A stretch of DNA of 53,551 bases from Marinilabiliales bacterium (GTDB taxonomy: Bacteria; Bacteroidota; Bacteroidia; Bacteroidales; F082). Below are positions 15,173-52,733 of this stretch, one piece after another. The stretch is from positions 1 through 53,551 of the forward strand of contig PKTD01000002.1 of the NCBI GenBank assembly GCA_002869315.1, read 5' to 3'. Position numbers and translations under genes: made by a program. The stretch's first letter is position 1; each line of letters begins with the position of its first letter. The notes beneath the pieces were generated by a model that searched no databases, had not been told where the DNA came from, and saw only the letters and a list, made by a program, of their open reading frames with translations.

Positions 15173-15427
15173 ATGTGTTTGTCTTTACCAGGAAAAATTT
15201 TGTCGATTAGTAATGACGAAGGTTTTGGAATGGCTGTAGTTGATTTTGGAGGAGTGAAGAGGGACATTTGTGTAGAGTGGGTCCCTGAAGCCAAAGTAGG
15301 CGATTATGTTCTTGCTCATGTAGGAACTGCACTCAGTTGTATGGATGAAAAATCTGCTCTGGAAAATATTGCAGCCCTTAATGAACTTAGCGAAAAGATA
15401 GATTTATCAGAATCCCAAGCCGAATAG
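15173..15427 (+). CDS. hypC: [NiFe] hydrogenase maturation chaperone HypC
   Basis: 84 aa of the HypC/HupF family, normal length. It begins MCLSLPGK; Cys 2 is the residue that contacts HypD and the hydrogenase large-subunit precursor during delivery of the Fe(CN)2CO unit. The small OB-like barrel is visible as VVDFGGVKRDICVEWVPE and VGDYVLAHVG, and ALSCMDEKSA forms the C-terminal helix. The other hyp genes (A, B, D, E, F) are not in the window. It is 2 bp upstream of the AAA+ regulator gene, so the two are almost certainly co-transcribed and probably translationally coupled. Confidence 0.95.
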   Translation: MCLSLPGKILSISNDEGFGMAVVDFGGVKRDICVEWVPEAKVGDYVLAHVGTALSCMDEKSALENIAALNELSEKIDLSESQAE

Positions 15428-15429
15428 AT

Positions 15430-16392
15430 ATGAGTCTTTTAAAATCGGTTTCCCTAATCACGCAGGATAGTAAAATGCTTGATCTCATCGAGCGTATAAA
15501 CCGTATTGCCGATTCTGATATTAGCGTGCTTTTAATTGGAGAAACCGGTGTTGGTAAAGAAGTTTTTACTGATTATATTCATCACCTTAGTAAGAGGGGT
15601 CAGTATCCATTGGTTAAAATTGGATTGGCAACATTGCCTCCCGATTTGCTGGAAAGTGAACTTTTTGGATTCGAAAAGGGTTCATTTACCAATGCCGATC
15701 ATAGTAAAAAAGGAATGTTCGAACTTGCTGATAGAGGCACTCTGTTTCTGGATGATATCGACGATTCTCCCTTAAATGTACAATCAAAATTACTAAGAGC
15801 AATAGAAGCAGAAGAAATTCGACATATAGGAGGTACAAGGCCTATACCCATTGATGTAAGGCTTGTTTGTGCCTCCAAAGTAGAACTTAAAGATCTGGTG
15901 GATAAAAAATTATTTCGTCAGGATTTGTATTACCGTATTAATGTTGTAGAACTTAGAATTCCTCCCCTTAGGGAGAGAAAAAATGATATTCCATTGCTTG
16001 TAAAGCACTTTGTAAAAAGATATAAACCCAATGAAAAACTGGATGTTAGTGATGAGGTAATGGATTTATTTATGAACTACGACTGGCCCGGAAATGTAAG
16101 AGAATTAAGGAATGTAGTACAGCGTTCTTCGCTATTTGCTGAGAATACTATTAATATGAATGATCTTCCCGACAGATTTAAAGATAACGATATGATAGAC
16201 AATATCGTAAAATCCTGTAAAGTTTGTTTTGATTCAGGGAATATGTCGTATAAAGAATTGCTCAAATGCATAGAAGTTAGACTTCTTTCTGATGCCATGA
16301 ATAAATATGATGGAAATCAAAGCCAGGCAGCCAAGAACTTAGGAATGAAACTATCTACCTTTAGGGATAGGATTAAGAAGTTGGAGATATGA
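15430..16392 (+). CDS. Stand-alone sigma-54-type AAA+ enhancer-binding regulator
   Basis: 320 aa. The AAA+ domain starts almost at residue 1, so there is no receiver, PAS or GAF sensor (a PspF-like layout). Walker A is GETGVGKE (37-44). The sigma-54 contact loop is GSFTNA (84-89) instead of GAFTGA, keeping the Phe-Thr pair. Walker B is TLFLDD (104-109), with Asp replacing the usual Glu. FRQDLYYRINV and PPLRERKNDI are standard, as is the DWPGNVRELRN sensor II region. The C-terminus (about 285-320) is a Fis-type helix-turn-helix (NQSQAAKNLGMKLSTFRDRI). Its position between hypC and the structural genes suggests it activates the hydrogenase operon, as HoxA-type proteins do elsewhere (inference). 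Confidence 0.9.
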   Translation: MSLLKSVSLITQDSKMLDLIERINRIADSDISVLLIGETGVGKEVFTDYIHHLSKRGQYPLVKIGLATLPPDLLESELFGFEKGSFTNADHSKKGMFELADRGTLFLDDIDDSPLNVQSKLLRAIEAEEIRHIGGTRPIPIDVRLVCASKVELKDLVDKKLFRQDLYYRINVVELRIPPLRERKNDIPLLVKHFVKRYKPNEKLDVSDEVMDLFMNYDWPGNVRELRNVVQRSSLFAENTINMNDLPDRFKDNDMIDNIVKSCKVCFDSGNMSYKELLKCIEVRLLSDAMNKYDGNQSQAAKNLGMKLSTFRDRIKKLEI

Positions 16393-16579
16393 GAAGTGCC
16401 TGGAGTTACAATTTATGATTAGCGAATTACAAGTTGGGAGTTTGTGTTGAATTTGAACTGCATAATTGCAATTAATTAATCTTATATAATAGTAATGTCA
16501 TTCCAAATCCCTACCAATTATGTAATATCTTTAATCGAGCCTTATATAATGAAGGAATCTAAGATTTGATTTATTAAAC

Positions 16580-16612
16580 ACGGAAATCCGTTACTTGATA
16601 GCGAAATTCCGC
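16580..16612. promoter_or_regulatory. Two candidate activator-binding palindromes
   Basis: ACGGAAATCCGT (16580-16591; 5-bp perfect arms around AA) and GCGAAATTCCGC (16601-16612; one mismatched base pair in each half). Read in opposite orientation, the cores agree at 8 of 10 positions (CGGAAATCCG and CGGAATTTCG). Their centres are 21 bp apart, two helical turns, and lie about 155 and 175 bp upstream of the predicted sigma-54 start point, the usual range for upstream activating sequences. Binding by the adjacent regulator is inferred. Confidence 0.45.
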
Positions 16613-16734
16613 AATAATTTAAAAAACCCTATTTAGAACAAATAAAAACTACTCCTATTAGTTATTTTATAACACTATGCCTTTGAACAAGTTATGTGAT
16701 AAAATAACAATAAGCGAGTTTTTATTTTCAGTTT

Positions 16735-16750
16735 CGGAACGCCTCTTGCC
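16735..16750 (+). promoter_or_regulatory. Candidate sigma-54 (-24/-12) promoter of the hydrogenase operon
   Basis: The 16 bases CGGAACGCCTCTTGCC align with TGGCACG-N4-TTGCW. The invariant GG (16736-16737) and GC (16748-16749) are separated by exactly 10 nt, ACG and TTGC match, and three consensus positions differ. The start point would be near 16761, directly at the ATG of the 73-aa ORF, implying a leaderless first cistron or a long leader for hyaA. Confidence 0.6.
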
Positions 16751-16761
16751 TAAGAGGTGAT

Positions 16762-16983
16762 ATGCCATTATCGACCAACATACGTATAAAGGGAAAGATT
16801 GCTGAAATCATTGATGATGAAGCAGGCAGAAATGTAAGAATAATCTGCAATAGCGAGCATGTGTTGGTAAAAATTACGGATTTGAATGATATTGGCCTGG
16901 GCGACGATATTAACTTAAAAGGAAATATTGACATAAAGTCGCTGGAAATAAATGATATAGAAGTAAATATAAACAAATATTAA
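16762..16983 (+). CDS. Small beta-rich protein preceding the hydrogenase genes
   Basis: 73 aa, not recognised. Alternating hydrophobic/charged strands (NIRIKGKIAEIIDDE, NVRIICNSEHVLVKI, DDINLKGNIDIKSLEIND) suggest a small OB-fold-like or TOBE-like barrel; there are no Cys pairs and no signal peptide. It is preceded by AAGAGGTGAT immediately before the ATG, and lies 35 bp upstream of hyaA with a small hairpin between. Either it is a small hydrogenase accessory protein or the region is a long hyaA leader that happens to be open. Codon use looks normal for the neighbourhood. Confidence 0.55.
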   Translation: MPLSTNIRIKGKIAEIIDDEAGRNVRIICNSEHVLVKITDLNDIGLGDDINLKGNIDIKSLEINDIEVNINKY

Positions 16984-16986
16984 TTC

Positions 16987-17006
16987 CCGTCTGTTGACGG
17001 ATTTTT
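16987..17006 (+). terminator. Weak hairpin plus T-run between the 73-aa ORF and hyaA
   Basis: CCGTC, loop TGTT, GACGG, then ATTTTT. The 5-bp GC-rich stem with a short T-run could be a weak terminator or attenuator, or a processing/stability element that sets hyaA levels relative to the first ORF. Confidence 0.4.
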
Positions 17007-17018
17007 AAAATAAATATT

Positions 17019-18119
17019 ATGGGCAAAAGACGTAAAACGTATTTAGAGGCTGCCATGGATAAGGGTTATTCTCGCCGCGACTTCATGAAGTTGGGAGCGA
17101 TGATGACTGCATTTATGGGGCTTGAATCGAGTATGGTAGCAAAGGTTACCAAGGCCATGGAGAAGGCCCCCAGAATTCCAATAATTTGGTTACATGGGCA
17201 GGAATGTACATGTTGTAGCGAGTCATTTATAAGGTCTTCGCATCCACTTGTTGCCGATATTTTATTGGATTTGGTATCACTTGATTATACTGAAACATTG
17301 ATGGCACCTTCCGGGTATCAGGCAGAAAAATCACTTCATGATACCATGAAAAATTATCATGGAAATTATCTTCTTACTGTTGAAGGAAGTATTCCTACTA
17401 AAGAACAAGGAGTTTACTGTTGTATAGGCGGAAAAACTTTTGAAAATATTGTTCAAGAGGCTGCTGATGGGGCAAAAGCTGTTATTGCCTGGGGTAGTTG
17501 CGCTTCAAATGGCTGTGTGCAATCAGCCAATCCTAATCCAACCGGAGCCACCCCAATACATGAAATAATTAAAGGAAAACCTATAATTAACGTACCCGGA
17601 TGTCCACCAATTGCTGAGGTAATGGCTGGGGTTGTGGTACATTTGTTAACCTTCGACAGAATACCTGAACTAGACAGGCTTCGCAGGCCTAAAGCATTTT
17701 ATTCAAGAAGAGTTCACGATACATGTTACCGTCGTCCTAATTTTGATGCCGGATTATTTGTGGAATCATTCGACGATGAAAATGCCAAAAAAGGATATTG
17801 TCTTTATAAAATGGGATGTAAAGGTCCTGTTACTTATAATGCCTGTGGTGTAATTAAGTGGAATAACGGAGTTAGTTTCCCTATTCAATCTGGTCACCCT
17901 TGTATTGGTTGTAGTGAGGAAAACTTCTGGGATAATGGAGGTTTTTACAAACGACTACCAAACTTCCCTGGATTTGGAATTGAGTCCAATGCCGATAAAG
18001 TAGGCTTAGGATTAGGAATTGCCACCGGGGTTGGAGTTGCTGCTCATGCTGTTGTAACAAACATACGAAAACGCAAATTAATAGCAGATGGCGAGTGTGA
18101 ACAAAAAGATGTTGAATAG
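17019..18119 (+). CDS. hyaA: [NiFe] hydrogenase small subunit, oxygen-tolerant type (group 1d-like)
   Basis: 366 aa electron-transfer subunit of a membrane-bound uptake hydrogenase. A Tat signal (SRRDFMK, residues 18-24) shows export of the folded complex. The proximal cluster ligands are Cys 63, 66, 161 and 195, and the two extra cysteines of oxygen-tolerant enzymes are present at 65 (ECTCCSES) and 166 (SCASNGCVQ), so a [4Fe-3S] cluster is expected. Distal cluster: His 233, Cys 236, 261, 267; medial [3Fe-4S]: Cys 276, 295, 298. A C-terminal hydrophobic helix (about 328-347) followed by RKRK anchors it to the membrane. Length is normal for group 1d. hyaB follows after 21 bp. Confidence 0.97.
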   Translation: MGKRRKTYLEAAMDKGYSRRDFMKLGAMMTAFMGLESSMVAKVTKAMEKAPRIPIIWLHGQECTCCSESFIRSSHPLVADILLDLVSLDYTETLMAPSGYQAEKSLHDTMKNYHGNYLLTVEGSIPTKEQGVYCCIGGKTFENIVQEAADGAKAVIAWGSCASNGCVQSANPNPTGATPIHEIIKGKPIINVPGCPPIAEVMAGVVVHLLTFDRIPELDRLRRPKAFYSRRVHDTCYRRPNFDAGLFVESFDDENAKKGYCLYKMGCKGPVTYNACGVIKWNNGVSFPIQSGHPCIGCSEENFWDNGGFYKRLPNFPGFGIESNADKVGLGLGIATGVGVAAHAVVTNIRKRKLIADGECEQKDVE

Positions 18120-18140: not shown

Positions 18141-19859
18141 ATGAGTCAAAGAATAGTAGTTGATCCTATTACAAGGATAGAAGGCCATCTGAGGGTGGAG
18201 ATAGAAGTAAAAGACGGTAAAATAGTAGATGCATATAGTTCGGGAACCATGGTTAGGGGTATGGAACTAATTTTAAAAGGTCGAGACCCCAGAGATGCAT
18301 GGGCATTTACAGAAAGAGTTTGTGGCGTATGTACAACAGTTCATGCACTAGCTTCAGTTAGAAGTGTAGAAAATGCTCTTGGAATTGTTGTTCCACCCAA
18401 TGCCGATCTCGTTAGAAACCTGATGTTTTGCTCACAAATGATGCAGGATCATGTGGTGCATTTCTACCATTTACATGCTCTCGATTGGGTTGATGTGGTT
18501 TCTTGTTTAAGTGCAGATCCTGCCCAAACATCAGCATTGGCACAGAGTATTTCAAACTGGCCAAAAAGTTCAGTTGGTTATTTTAAAGATGTACAAAAGA
18601 GAATAAAGAAGTTTGTTGATAGCGGACAATTGGGAATTTTTGCAAATGGCTATTGGGGTCATAAAGCATATAAATTACCTGCTGAGGCAAACCTTATGGC
18701 TGTTGCACATTATTTGGAAGCTCTAGAATGGCAAAAAGAAATTGTTAAGGTCCATACAATTTTTGGTGGTAAAAATCCACATCCAAATTATTTGGTTGGT
18801 GGAGTTCCTTTATCAGTGAACCTAAATGAATCAAATGCATTAAATGCAGAACGACTGGCTTATGTAAAACAATTGCTCGACGATGCCAAAACATTTATTG
18901 ACCAGGTTTATATTCCTGATTTAATGGCTATTGCATCTTTCTACAAAGATTGGGGTGCCATTGGAGGAGGATTGGAAAATTACCTTTCTTATGGCGATCT
19001 TCCAACAAATGGATATAATGATGTTTCCAGTTTTAAGTTCCCAAGAGGAATTATCATGGGTCGCGACATTAGTAAAATTCATGAAGTTGATGGCACAGAT
19101 CCTGATCAAATTAAGGAGTTTATTGCTCATTCATATTATGACTATGATAGTGGTGATAAGAGTGGAAAGCATCCTTGGGATGGTCAGACGAAACTGAATT
19201 ATAGTGGACCTAAGCCTCCTTACGATCAACTAAATGTCGATGGTAAGTATAGTTGGCTTAAAACACCAAGATGGAAAGGTCATGCTATGGAAGTAGGTCC
19301 TTTATCAAGGATGCTTGTTGGATATGCTTCAGGAAGAGAAGACTATAAAGAAGTGGTTGAAAGCGCATTATCACAGTTAAACGTGCCTGTTGGGGCTTTG
19401 TTCTCCACACTTGGAAGAACTGCCGCAAGAGGTCTGGAAACTAAGCTTGTTGCAAATTGGGCACAGGAGTTTTTCGATTCACTAATTTCTAACATTAAAA
19501 ATGGAGACTCACGTATGCACAGTGAATATATGTGGGATCCAAAAGACTGGCCAGCTGAAGCCAAAGGTGTTGGAATGACAGAAGCTCCAAGAGGTGCTCT
19601 TGCCCATTGGTCGGTTATAAAAGATAAGAAGTTAGATAACTATCAATTAGTAGTTCCAAGTACATGGAATGCATCTCCAAGAGATGAAAGAGGACAAAGG
19701 TCTGCTTATGAAGCTTCCTTAATAGGAACTCCGGTTGCTGATCCTGAAAGTCCTCTGGAATTACTACGTACTATACATTCATTTGACCCATGCATAGCAT
19801 GTGCTGTGCATGTTTACGATGAGAAAGGAAGTTATGTTCATCAAATTCAAACTTTTTAG
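18141..19859 (+). CDS. hyaB: [NiFe] hydrogenase large (catalytic) subunit
   Basis: 572 aa. It carries the Ni-Fe(CN)2CO site that splits H2. The N-terminal motif ERVCGVCTTVH gives Cys 61 and 64 and the C-terminal motif DPCIACAVH gives Cys 551 and 554, the four metal-binding cysteines. Fifteen residues follow His 557 (VYDEKGSYVHQIQTF); this tail should be removed by the HyaD protease after nickel insertion. VDPITRIEGHLRVE at the start is standard. No own signal peptide, so it is co-exported with HyaA through Tat. It sits 21 bp after hyaA and 2 bp before hyaC in one operon. Confidence 0.98.
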   Translation: MSQRIVVDPITRIEGHLRVEIEVKDGKIVDAYSSGTMVRGMELILKGRDPRDAWAFTERVCGVCTTVHALASVRSVENALGIVVPPNADLVRNLMFCSQMMQDHVVHFYHLHALDWVDVVSCLSADPAQTSALAQSISNWPKSSVGYFKDVQKRIKKFVDSGQLGIFANGYWGHKAYKLPAEANLMAVAHYLEALEWQKEIVKVHTIFGGKNPHPNYLVGGVPLSVNLNESNALNAERLAYVKQLLDDAKTFIDQVYIPDLMAIASFYKDWGAIGGGLENYLSYGDLPTNGYNDVSSFKFPRGIIMGRDISKIHEVDGTDPDQIKEFIAHSYYDYDSGDKSGKHPWDGQTKLNYSGPKPPYDQLNVDGKYSWLKTPRWKGHAMEVGPLSRMLVGYASGREDYKEVVESALSQLNVPVGALFSTLGRTAARGLETKLVANWAQEFFDSLISNIKNGDSRMHSEYMWDPKDWPAEAKGVGMTEAPRGALAHWSVIKDKKLDNYQLVVPSTWNASPRDERGQRSAYEASLIGTPVADPESPLELLRTIHSFDPCIACAVHVYDEKGSYVHQIQTF

Positions 19860-19861
19860 TC

Positions 19862-20569
19862 ATGAACAGATATGCAAGAATTGAAAAATCGTTAATGCAC
19901 CCAAAATACGTTTGGGAGTTACCTGTTAGGTTTTACCACTGGATTAATGCTTTAGTGGTAGTTATACTTGGAGTAACGGGATATATTATCGGAAATCCAC
20001 CAGGAATAACAACTGCCACCGAGGCCTCTTTTGGATACTGGTTTGGAACCGTTAGGTTTATTCATTTTGTGGCTGCATATGTATTCTTCTTCAACTTTGT
20101 TTTCCGTCTTTATTGGGGTTTTGTTGGAAATAAATTTGCCAAATGGAAAAATTTTATTCCTTATACAAAAGCTCATTGGGTAGATATGTGGGAAGTAATA
20201 AAAGTTGATATTTTTCAGGTAAAGTGCGACAAGAATCCAAACTTAGGTCATAATGCACTGGCTAGTTTTACCTACTTTCTGACGTTCATAGTATTTATAT
20301 TACAAACTGTAACAGGATTTGGAATCTATGCCGCCATGAGCCCTAGTTGGTTTCCGCAGTTATTTGCCTGGATCCCTTCTGTGTTTGGTGGTGACATTGC
20401 TACCCGTCAGTTACATCATATTTTAATGTGGTTTTTTGCTCTTTTTGCAATAGTTCATGTATATCTGGTTTTCTACCATGATTATATCGAGAAGAATGGA
20501 GTAACCTCTTCTATGATAGGTGGATGGAAATTCCAGGATAAGGATAAGGTGGAGAGAGAAAAAGATTAG
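19862..20569 (+). CDS. hyaC: Hydrogenase b-type cytochrome subunit
   Basis: 235 aa membrane dihaem cytochrome b that passes electrons from HyaAB to the quinone pool. Four membrane segments are seen (about 28-45, 65-85, 135-155, 185-205). Candidate haem ligands are His 26 (RFYHWINAL), His 68 (FIHFVAAY), His 185 or 186 (LHHILMW) and His 199 (IVHVYLVFYH). The motif set matches HyaC/HupC. It starts 2 bp after hyaB ends and is followed by an intrinsic terminator, which probably closes the structural operon. Confidence 0.95.
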   Translation: MNRYARIEKSLMHPKYVWELPVRFYHWINALVVVILGVTGYIIGNPPGITTATEASFGYWFGTVRFIHFVAAYVFFFNFVFRLYWGFVGNKFAKWKNFIPYTKAHWVDMWEVIKVDIFQVKCDKNPNLGHNALASFTYFLTFIVFILQTVTGFGIYAAMSPSWFPQLFAWIPSVFGGDIATRQLHHILMWFFALFAIVHVYLVFYHDYIEKNGVTSSMIGGWKFQDKDKVEREKD

Positions 20570-20657: not shown

Positions 20658-21134
20658 ATGACAATAAACAGTAAAGATGACAAAATCCTGATAATGGGCC
20701 TGGGTAATGTTTTACTCAATGATGAGGGAATAGGTGTGCAGGTGGTGAGAGAAATGGAGAACTTAAAACTTCCTGATAATGTTGACCTTTTGGATGGAGG
20801 GACTGGAGGATTTGTCTTACTATCATTATTTCAGGACTATAATATAATAATTATTATCGATGCCACCCTGGGAGATGAAGAAATAGGTAATATTAAGGTA
20901 TTGGAGCCCAAATTTTCAAGCGATTTTCCAAAATCATTGAGCACTCATGAGTTGGGAATGAAAGATATGATAGAATCGGCTATGCTCCTGGAAAAAGTAC
21001 CAAAACTTTATTTGGTAGCTGTAAATATAAATCCACAACAGGATATGGACATGAAGGTTAGTCCCCTAATGATGAAAAAAGTTCCGGAAATTGTTGATAT
21101 TGTTCTTAAAATACTTGAAAAAGTAAACAAATGA
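20658..21134 (+). CDS. hyaD: Hydrogenase maturation endopeptidase
   Basis: 158 aa of the HybD/HyaD/HupD protease family, which removes the C-terminal tail of the large subunit once nickel is in place. The opening ILIMGLGNVLLNDEGIGVQV is diagnostic. The expected nickel-sensing residues are visible at Glu 23, Asp 68 (IIIDAT) and His 97 (STHELG). It lies 88 bp after hyaC, beyond a terminator. Its stop codon directly abuts the stop of the convergent lipid kinase gene, with no base between. Confidence 0.95.
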   Translation: MTINSKDDKILIMGLGNVLLNDEGIGVQVVREMENLKLPDNVDLLDGGTGGFVLLSLFQDYNIIIIIDATLGDEEIGNIKVLEPKFSSDFPKSLSTHELGMKDMIESAMLLEKVPKLYLVAVNINPQQDMDMKVSPLMMKKVPEIVDIVLKILEKVNK

Positions 21135-39200: not shown

Positions 39201-39674
39201 CAATGATGCGGCATCACGTGTTGTATCTAAAGGTATTCCATGAGTTAAACCACTTCCGTTTTGGGCAAAAATCAAGTCATACATGGTTTTTAAATCTTCA
39301 TCTCCTGGAGTATTAAAATAATCGGTAGAAAATCCTGTTGTATTTGCCTGCTCAGCCCTGAAAACTCTTCCGTTGGAAATAATGAGTCCGGTATCCATTC
39401 CAGTACCTGCTCCATTTAAACCTTGTCCATCCCAATAATAACCAAATGCAGCACGGTGCCCAGCATAATTTATACCATCCCAGGTGGAATCTGGAAAATC
39501 ACCACCTCCACCATGTAACTTTGTAAGTACCCAGTCGATAACCTGCTGGTTACCATTGGAAATATCCATAGTATCCATAGTTTGAACTCGTATAGGAGGA
39601 GCTGATTGTGAGAATGTAGATAGGCTAAAGAAAATTATCAATATTAAACCTGAAAATCGTATTAGTTTACTCAT
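36201..39674 (-). CDS. Giant adhesin-like protein: choice-of-anchor L, PKD repeats, T9SS type B sorting domain
   Basis: 1157 aa secreted protein with a signal peptide (about 1-24). Residues about 25-310 match the choice-of-anchor L domain (NPxxx-type GTGMDTGLIISNG and YVFASDEYQFKRADLD). Several Ig-like domains follow, then three PKD domains at about 825-890, 912-985 and 990-1062 (FTWDFGDSQTS, YEWTFGDGSGE and FLWDFGDGNTS). The last 90 residues are the gliding-motility-associated type B sorting domain (FIPTAFTPNGDGLNDFFEI, YNRLGQQIW, YKIQGTDYQ). It is probably a cell-surface adhesin or glycan binder; no catalytic motif found. Monocistronic. Confidence 0.92.
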   Translation of the reverse strand: MSKLIRFSGLILIIFFSLSTFSQSAPPIRVQTMDTMDISNGNQQVIDWVLTKLHGGGGDFPDSTWDGINYAGHRAAFGYYWDGQGLNGAGTGMDTGLIISNGRVFRAEQANTTGFSTDYFNTPGDEDLKTMYDLIFAQNGSGLTHGIPLDTTRDAASLEFLYRPYGDTITLRYVFASDEYQFKRADLDVYSDFSGYSGHPDQMYDIFGISIDFQSKPFVNEALLPPIACPSQDASCWVNLYGVNQSSNSNFYLGNDANGNPPTGNTYDGQTNNSNSLVIRKEVQPCGIYKVKIAIEDFWYVEQDPDIIPRGGQINSSLFLGGGSLTGGKSNPTWTTTYSFDGVGANDPDFDGQLIEGGCRDLLVTFKLDFPVSAIDTAYDIPFRINSEIYRDSVNISYADGSPLYSDSVIFHPGETEKTIRVSVGNIGVDHNNVKFTWPMDPCEKPRPPFVQGVFSKFVQFDIRDNSPIVVAEDPKIYEAYCKDIVEVSIVDETSGGVSPLTYVWPGNPIPPVDEYTQQVNNSPEIINVKVIDGCDNETESVVQINNLPIIFDPIQPIFLCGPGQEATVPANTIKPDSPDYSIDNVVWERLDPPPITPLGDEPGNQITVEYDNFVGDDIWTCQYTITDVCGVSATSDFEVNQSSLTLNNAGICLGDQVSLYTGTPANWYEWYKMLPPNDSVLIGTNQQEFDNPTSTSIYKLWIEDNCGEVQAATMTVYVDDYTPQISLIPNDGEICNGETITLTANDYTGIEGDVTYEWSNGKTTQQITVAVDEYVIGLNNFYVNTSHDYLPYYLCDNNAQTEFTVFENPSPDFEIDPSEHACTNTDVQFTYLSDTTNNRTFTWDFGDSQTSNQANTTHQYSSPDTYDVNLYVEHTYAPNGHICSNDLTKPLTVDPLPEPDFSADIYEGCIPVTVNFSDDSQEILSGATYEWTFGDGSGENIQNPSHTYNEAGLFTVSLTVHNTDRCFASISKPNIIQANPNPTAGLDADPWITTMDTPTIDFFNESISDSTLVDFLWDFGDGNTSSDENPSHTFDQAGDYQITFRIETINGCYDDTLAVVALTEYVQLFIPTAFTPNGDGLNDFFEIKGTPMADFNMYIYNRLGQQIWSTHNFEEMWNGEDQYGNPVEVGSYIYKIQGTDYQKTPVLYEGTVNVVR

Positions 39675-52623: not shown

Positions 52624-52733
52624 GAGCTTTCATTTTCGGATAATTTTAACCCATTTGCAAGTTCCGTTCCTGAGTTTTTATTTGAAAAACAGTTAATTAT
52701 AAACTGTGGTATATAAATTGCCCTACAATTTAT

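Follow-up and report, generated by a model that had tools for sequence, protein, structure and literature searches.

We analysed a hydrogenase locus and its putative sigma-54 control region in a 53,551-nucleotide (nt) stretch of DNA, hereafter the window, which corresponds to contig PKTD01000002.1 (C178) of a Marinilabiliales bacterium assembly (GCA_002869315.1; 3.29 Mb, 87% complete). On the plus strand, the locus reads hypC, a sigma-54-type activator gene, two palindromes, a -24/-12 promoter element, a 73-amino-acid (aa) gene, hyaA, hyaB, a cytochrome b subunit gene and a maturation protease gene. The hydrogenase maturation chaperone gene hypC (15173–15427; Pfam HupF_HypC 84.8 bits, TIGR00074 above cut-off) ends 2 nt before the activator gene (15430–16392). 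Downstream of the control region lie the 73-aa gene (16762–16983), the [NiFe]-hydrogenase small subunit gene hyaA (17019–18119; Pfam), the large subunit gene hyaB (18141–19859; Pfam NiFeSe_Hases 795 bits), the hydrogenase b-type cytochrome subunit gene (19862–20569; Pfam, TIGR02125 above cut-off) and the maturation protease gene (20658–21134; Pfam HycI, TIGR00072 above cut-off).

The hydrogenase appears to be an O2-tolerant-type [NiFe] enzyme, as a first-pass annotation of the window had proposed. HyaA aligns with Ralstonia HoxK without gaps (E 1.5e-140), and its C63, C65, C66, C161, C166 and C195 correspond to HoxK residues 17, 19, 20, 115, 120 and 149, so that all six cysteines serving as ligands of the special proximal cluster of O2-tolerant enzymes are kept. 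HyaA also has a twin-arginine signal (SRRDFMK). It is the single hyaA-like small subunit gene found at E≤1e-20 in this 87% complete genome.

The GG-N10-GC element reported by the first-pass annotation at 16735–16750 (CGGAACGCCTCTTGCC) is present on the plus strand, with the GG at 16736–16737, ten bases between, and the GC at 16748–16749. The same annotation placed it directly before the hydrogenase operon; this holds for the operon's first gene, since the 73-aa open reading frame (ORF) begins with an ATG 12 nt past the element, but hyaA lies ~270 nt away and the gap is not empty. Window statistics alone fail to make the element significant, as matches stay near the expected number: GGNACGNNNNTTGC with at most one mismatch yields 5 matches against 3.74 expected (two exact), and the looser TGGCACGNNNNTTGCW with at most three mismatches yields 61 against 46.8, the hydrogenase site being among the three-mismatch ones. 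Genome-wide, YGGNAYNNNNNTTGCC gives 35 matches and a reversed-pattern control 6. Of 30 matches inspected, 27 fall inside ORFs of at least 100 aa, so the genome-wide excess is no evidence of promoters, and a genome-wide sigma-54 regulon drawn from the 35 matches was rejected; the hydrogenase element is one of the three intergenic matches. A hairpin noticed by eye over the -12 region (CCTCTT-GCCT-AAGAGG) was dropped, as it is not in G002. Separately, a second intergenic -24/-12-like match, TGGTATATAAATTGCC, occurs in the window at 52707–52722 (plus strand), where the ATG of a 99-aa ORF lies 12 nt past the GC, the same element-to-ATG spacing as at the hydrogenase operon.

Conservation provides what the window lacks. 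We searched for the activator in 100 genomes, the window's own included, and found an orthologue in 15: 14 copies match over most of their length (57–100% identity), and G032 holds a broken one. YGG-N10-GCC precedes the small gene in all 15 activator-bearing genomes (in G015 the element was located separately, its gene start having been misassigned in the upstream-region comparison), while its distance to the ATG varies and the flanking sequence differs between genera. The first-pass annotation had judged element and activator together to be more than chance would readily give, and had named absence of the element from close relatives that keep the locus as a refutation. The element alone does not carry that judgement within the window; its retention in 15 of 15 related loci does exceed chance. 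In G003, G004 and G044, the element stays with hyaA, on a contig other than the activator's. Among the 32 activator-associated hya promoters collected across all comparisons, 26 have an intact GG-N10-GC. In a wider sample of 393 genomes of the order, a -24/-12 matrix averages 10.3 in activator-bearing loci versus 1.3 in the others (p 0.0014). This contrast is less sharp than that of the paired sites described below: the full TTGCC element occurs in 5 of 9 activator-bearing order loci, and the activator-lacking G147 also scores highly.

Two tandem palindromes, missed by the first-pass annotation, lie upstream of the promoter element at 16579–16614. These putative activator-binding sites, termed upstream activating sequences (UAS), share the consensus YACGGAWWTCCGYAA and stand 21 bp apart on the plus strand, UAS1 (CACGGAAATCCGTTA, 16579–16593) at ~-157 and UAS2 (AGCGAAATTCCGCAA, 16600–16614) at ~-136 relative to the GG. 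A dyad count on the upstream regions recovered ACGG-N3-TCCG in 11 of 15 genomes, whereas the maximum for any dyad in five shuffles was 6–7. We trained a position weight matrix on 13 loci of family f1 (26 sites), among them the window's own (pair score 38.7), and applied it to loci outside the training set. In the order sample, 39 of the 41 other hya-positive genomes could be scored (G313 and G354 have no upstream sequence): the pair upstream of hyaA reaches 16.9–37.0 in all nine activator-bearing genomes and at most 7.9 in all 30 without the activator. Within this comparison, G075 was outside the training set but known when the consensus was written, and G385 was counted as activator-bearing on a truncated gene. 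In a sample of 395 genomes from the rest of the phylum, 28 of 96 hya-positive genomes were taken, one of which (G825) has no upstream sequence, and the pair scores 13.7–39.4 in 9/9 activator-bearing loci and no more than 10.6 in 18/18 others; L061 and L135 had already been used earlier. Because activator-bearing and activator-lacking hya loci separate completely, the pair travels with the activator and not with the hydrogenase.

The pair is found at 31 of the 32 activator-associated hya promoters, and in the remaining one (G004) the contig stops before its place. Measured to the best -24 candidate, the distance from UAS1 to the GG falls at 154–158 in 18 loci, 145–147 in four, 86–87 in five and 162–165 in three, with one unclear. 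Helical phasing was considered as a general rule and set aside; the 157 and 146 classes are one turn apart, but those at 87 and 162–165 are not whole turns from them. In the window's genome, the strict paired-site pattern occurs once, at the hydrogenase promoter. Across 21 stretches (613,030 strand-bases), 34 strand hits scoring at least 16 resolve into 19 places, 17 of them upstream of hyaA (four being training loci) and two adjoining an activator gene, namely behind the second activator copy of G755 and next to the activator gene of G587, a genome without a hya match.

No UAS pair was detected in any of the 12 hypC upstream regions scanned. Together with the single strict pair in the genome, this fits the description of the switch as self-contained in the first-pass annotation. 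Autoregulation of the hypC-activator unit was considered and rejected, as these 12 regions lack the pair and contain one unconvincing GG-N10-GC, in G032. By eye, a TATATTAG-like stretch appears upstream of hypC in L049, L050, L053, L055, L056 and L058, a candidate promoter of the hypC-activator unit. Between the UAS pair and the promoter, conservation also marks an A/T-rich box at 16628–16645 on the plus strand (CCTATTTAGAACAAATAA, also given as TATTTAGAAC), ~108 bp before the -24 element; TATTTAGA is common to 9 of 15 upstream regions, and the box is possibly a DNA-bending site.

The activator and the hydrogenase are also coupled in their distribution. In the first comparison, hyaA is present in 15/15 orthologue-bearing genomes and in 0/9 chosen genomes without the orthologue; the activator-bearing relatives that have names are Bacteroidota metagenome assemblies, including the Marinilabiliales isolates BM524 and BM514. 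Of the 393 genomes in the order sample, nine have the activator and 42 have hyaA, and all nine activator-bearing genomes are among the 42 (Fisher p 8e-10, relatedness ignored); G385 holds a further, truncated copy. In the phylum sample, a receiver-less activator, recognised by frame length, occurs in 13 of 395 genomes and hyaA in 96, with 10 having both. Since hyaA counts far exceed the shared counts, most hydrogenase-bearing genomes lack the activator. Activator and hyaA were found on different contigs in 6 of 15 genomes; in G003, G004 and G044 at least 2.6 kb past the activator is free of hyaA, so the two are truly apart, and in G005, G053 and G075 the contig stops just behind the activator and is uninformative on the distance. 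In G002, hypC and the activator are inverted relative to hyaA.

Some activators adjoin other operons. In G675 (L211, 7677–11034), the activator is followed by a UAS pair, TGGCACACTGATTGCA, and then, in place of hya, an Fe-S gene and one for a thioredoxin-like ferredoxin. A second receiver-less activator of G755 (L204, 12353–15188) comes with a UAS pair of its own and TGGCATTTCTATTGCA and precedes a second maturation protease gene and an Fe-S gene. As a rule, it seems, an activator goes with a single hydrogen or redox operon, usually the adjacent one. The coupling of the activator to hypC, as first described, is correct for the window and for 13 of 14 fetched relative loci (none was seen in G075), but it is not general: hypC was not found beside the activator in most of 12 phylum stretches, and an activator of G755 follows hypF, hypC, hypD and a hypE-type gene.

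The activator itself matches Sigma54_activat (PF00158, 204.2 bits), AAA_lid_14 and HTH_8 (PF02954, 36.7 bits), in agreement with its first assignment as a sigma-54-type AAA+ activator, and combines the AAA+ domain with a Fis-type helix-turn-helix (HTH). Pfam gave no receiver or GAF match in the protein, whose AAA+ domain begins at residue 9. A tree that also includes 17 other activators groups all 30 receiver-less proteins in one clade (support 100/100), beside seven relatives that all carry a receiver domain. The window activator (Walker B LDDI) and these seven sisters share the LDDIDD Walker B variant. GSFTNA takes the place of GAFTGA in the window activator; by reading of the 30-row alignment, position 86 is F or Y in every row and T87 is invariant, and the last G is not kept. 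Because the seven sisters retain both a receiver and GAFTGA or GAYTGA, we infer that the receiver was lost and the last G drifted in the receiver-less family.

Across all 30 aligned members, the only invariant cysteines are C263-x2-C266-x13-C280, between the AAA+ lid and the HTH. The alignment leaves out truncated, frame-broken or unfetched copies (G005, G032, G053, G385, G675 and the second copy of G755), and the broken copy of G005 lacks the third cysteine. The spacing is absent from all 18 other activators read; from the window's own genome, the motif search parsed two of the five other activators. An AlphaFold model (mean predicted local distance difference test score, pLDDT, 83.2) places the cysteines on two helices (255–268 and 274–292) directly before the HTH. 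Its best structural match is NtrC4 (Z 28.0, root-mean-square deviation 2.2 over 241 residues); the structural matches cover mainly residues 4–254 and barely the cysteine hairpin. The first-pass term "sensorless" thus holds for the N-terminus, where no sensor or receiver is matched, but is doubtful for the protein as a whole, because the three-cysteine motif is invariant.

Taken together, the comparisons support the core of the first-pass reading and extend it: the locus very probably represents a one-target sigma-54 regulatory cassette for an O2-tolerant-type hydrogenase, possibly with a cysteine-gated activator. The coupling of promoter, UAS pair and activator is the firmest part of this reading, and we hold it with high confidence on the sequence comparisons. 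In the proposed mechanism, the activator would be co-expressed with HypC under a separate promoter further upstream, one with no activator site. It would bind the two tandem palindromes, two helical turns apart and ~157 bp upstream of the -24 element, as their conservation suggests. By analogy with its family, it would then loop to the RNA polymerase-sigma-54 complex and, through ATP hydrolysis, open the promoter of the operon that comprises the small gene, hyaA, hyaB and the cytochrome b and protease genes. In place of an N-terminal sensor domain, the input may be read by the C-x2-C-x13-C motif, which lies in the helical hairpin linking the AAA+ lid to the HTH. We tentatively suggest that, much as in rhizobial NifA, this motif acts as a redox or metal switch (O2, Fe-S, Zn or Ni). 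A broader and similarly speculative proposal is that of a phylum-wide Bacteroidota family which lost its receiver, gained an interdomain three-cysteine metal or Fe-S switch, and was hard-wired by the tandem palindromes, each member to one hydrogen or redox operon; it might form a redox-gated module for turning on O2-tolerant hydrogenases, in convergence with rhizobial NifA. With activator, sites and promoter readable from the sequence, the trigger of H2 oxidation in these bacteria can be put to the test, and the cysteine motif would show cleanly whether redox gating has an origin separate from that in NifA.

Several observations weigh against this interpretation. Six of the 32 hya promoters (G387, G269, G385, G755, G820 and G448) either carry GG or GA in place of the -12 GC or show no clear element, and the intact element of G413 is weak by the matrix (p 0.30). 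Unrelated UAS-pair matches also occur, one in the window near 39242 on the minus strand (score 19.2) and one in L211 of G675 (14.3). Three of the 13 activator-bearing phylum genomes (G587, G675 and G712) have no hya match, and the 15 kb fetched from G712 contain no UAS pair. GSFTNA departs from the GAFTGA that the receiver-bearing sisters keep. The rpoN gene of the window's own genome (L010, 523–1986; contig C40) carries one in-frame stop at codon 226 as assembled, which may be an assembly error; the genus mates G002–G004 have open rpoN frames of 493–494 aa. Finally, according to passages of PMC10590331, one NifA has two cysteines immediately ahead of its HTH that affected neither DNA binding nor dimerisation.

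The first gene of the operon, overlooked in the first-pass annotation, is conserved. Homologues of the 73-aa gene stand at the equivalent place in 15/15 loci, and five further ones occur in the order. In the phylum, a short ORF occupies this place in 6 of 9 loci (homology by eye), with none seen in the other three. One cysteine is invariant in 15 aligned rows and, by reading, absent from four of the six phylum ORFs. The window protein matches no Pfam or NCBIfam family, and its AlphaFold model (pLDDT 76.3, predicted template modelling score 0.49) has no Foldseek match at E≤0.001. A HypC paralogue was suggested by similar glycine spacing, seen by eye, but is not supported (hhalign probability 0.5%; a single weak HypC match, E 0.06, among the 15 members). 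A transcription start near 16761, if true, would make the mRNA of this gene leaderless or nearly so.

One alternative, which we consider less likely, is an activator without an intrinsic sensor that a partner keeps inhibited in trans; this partner would be either HypC or the 73-aa protein, the latter as feedback on the assembly state of the hydrogenase. The missing N-terminal domain, the adjacency of hypC in 13 of 14 relative loci and the 73-aa gene heading the controlled operon in all 15 would suit such a scheme, which has precedents in PspA acting on PspF and HrpV on HrpS (in the sections of PMC7057263 consulted). Yet trans-inhibition leaves the cysteine motif unexplained, hypC was not found beside the activator in most of the 12 phylum stretches, and in three of nine phylum loci no short ORF was seen where the 73-aa gene would stand.

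Very unlikely, in turn, is an activator that works without sigma-54, its GAFTGA being degenerate and the -24/-12 match incidental. GSFTNA, the altered or unclear -12 at 6/32 promoters and the rpoN stop would be in line with this, but the distance between element and UAS pair takes a small number of fixed values, the F/Y at 86 and T87 are retained, and of 35 activator-bearing genomes 33 gave an rpoN match, above the family cut-off in 32 and below it in one (none in G032 and G075). We give hardly any credence to a real sigma-54 promoter driven by another activator of the genome, with the adjacent one a bystander. The genome does offer nine Sigma54_activat matches, fragments and the hydrogenase-locus activator included; against this, the UAS-pair scores of all 48 activator-lacking hya loci stay below the range of the activator-bearing loci of the same sample, and the pair stands beside the activator even where no hya follows (G587, G675 and the second G755 copy, with G712 as an exception). 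A functionless chance match would agree with the window counts, but is practically discounted by retention of the element in 15/15 loci from several genera whose surrounding sequence has diverged.

The proposed cassette, with its activator, UAS pair and promoter, can be set beside several known systems. We know of no described hydrogenase regulator of this sigma-54 class in Bacteroidota. Like HoxA and HupR of Proteobacteria, the activator is of the sigma-54 type (NtrC family) and appears devoted to an uptake [NiFe]-hydrogenase. HoxA and HupR have a receiver at the N-terminus and take their signal from a regulatory hydrogenase that senses H2 (HupUV/HoxBC) and a kinase, whereas the window activator has no receiver and its 87% complete genome gave one hyaA-like small subunit gene at E≤1e-20. 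The hydrogenase resembles Ralstonia HoxK and the E. coli Hyd-1 small subunit in its six proximal-cluster cysteines and the b-type cytochrome of its operon, and differs from the O2-tolerant membrane-bound hydrogenases of Ralstonia and E. coli in host phylum and promoter control. The open-licence PMC literature, as far as its texts were available to us, yielded no description of such a Bacteroidota system, and in the portions consulted, a cross-phylum survey of sigma-54 regulons mentions [NiFe]-hydrogenase subunits for no phylum other than Proteobacteria (PMC12316311).

FhlA, a sigma-54 hydrogenase activator, is encoded at the end of the E. coli hyp operon hypABCDE-fhlA, responds to formate and also regulates the operon in which it is encoded, according to excerpts of PMC7658346. 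The G755 activator likewise follows hypF-C-D-E-type genes, but no UAS pair lies before hypC in any of 12 regions, and the window activator has no sensor or GAF domain and scores 240.3 bits with the NCBIfam FhlA model against a cut-off of 830. PspF and HrpR-HrpS consist of AAA+ plus HTH with no cis regulatory domain (passages of PMC7057263). The window activator shares this architecture but has another target and a cysteine motif, and stays below the NCBIfam PspF cut-offs (255.9 vs 443.55 and 232.8 vs 529 bits). In NifA of alpha- and beta-proteobacteria, cysteines at and after the AAA+ domain have been proposed to bind metal and sense redox (excerpts of PMC10590331 and PMC7888657). Cysteines near the AAA+ domain are common to both proteins, but in the window activator all three lie in the linker before the HTH, no GAF domain is present, and the NifA model TIGR01817 gives 280.1 against a cut-off of 528.85. 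The sequence evidence supports the view that this locus extends sigma-54 hydrogenase control of the HoxA/HupR/FhlA type in an altered form.
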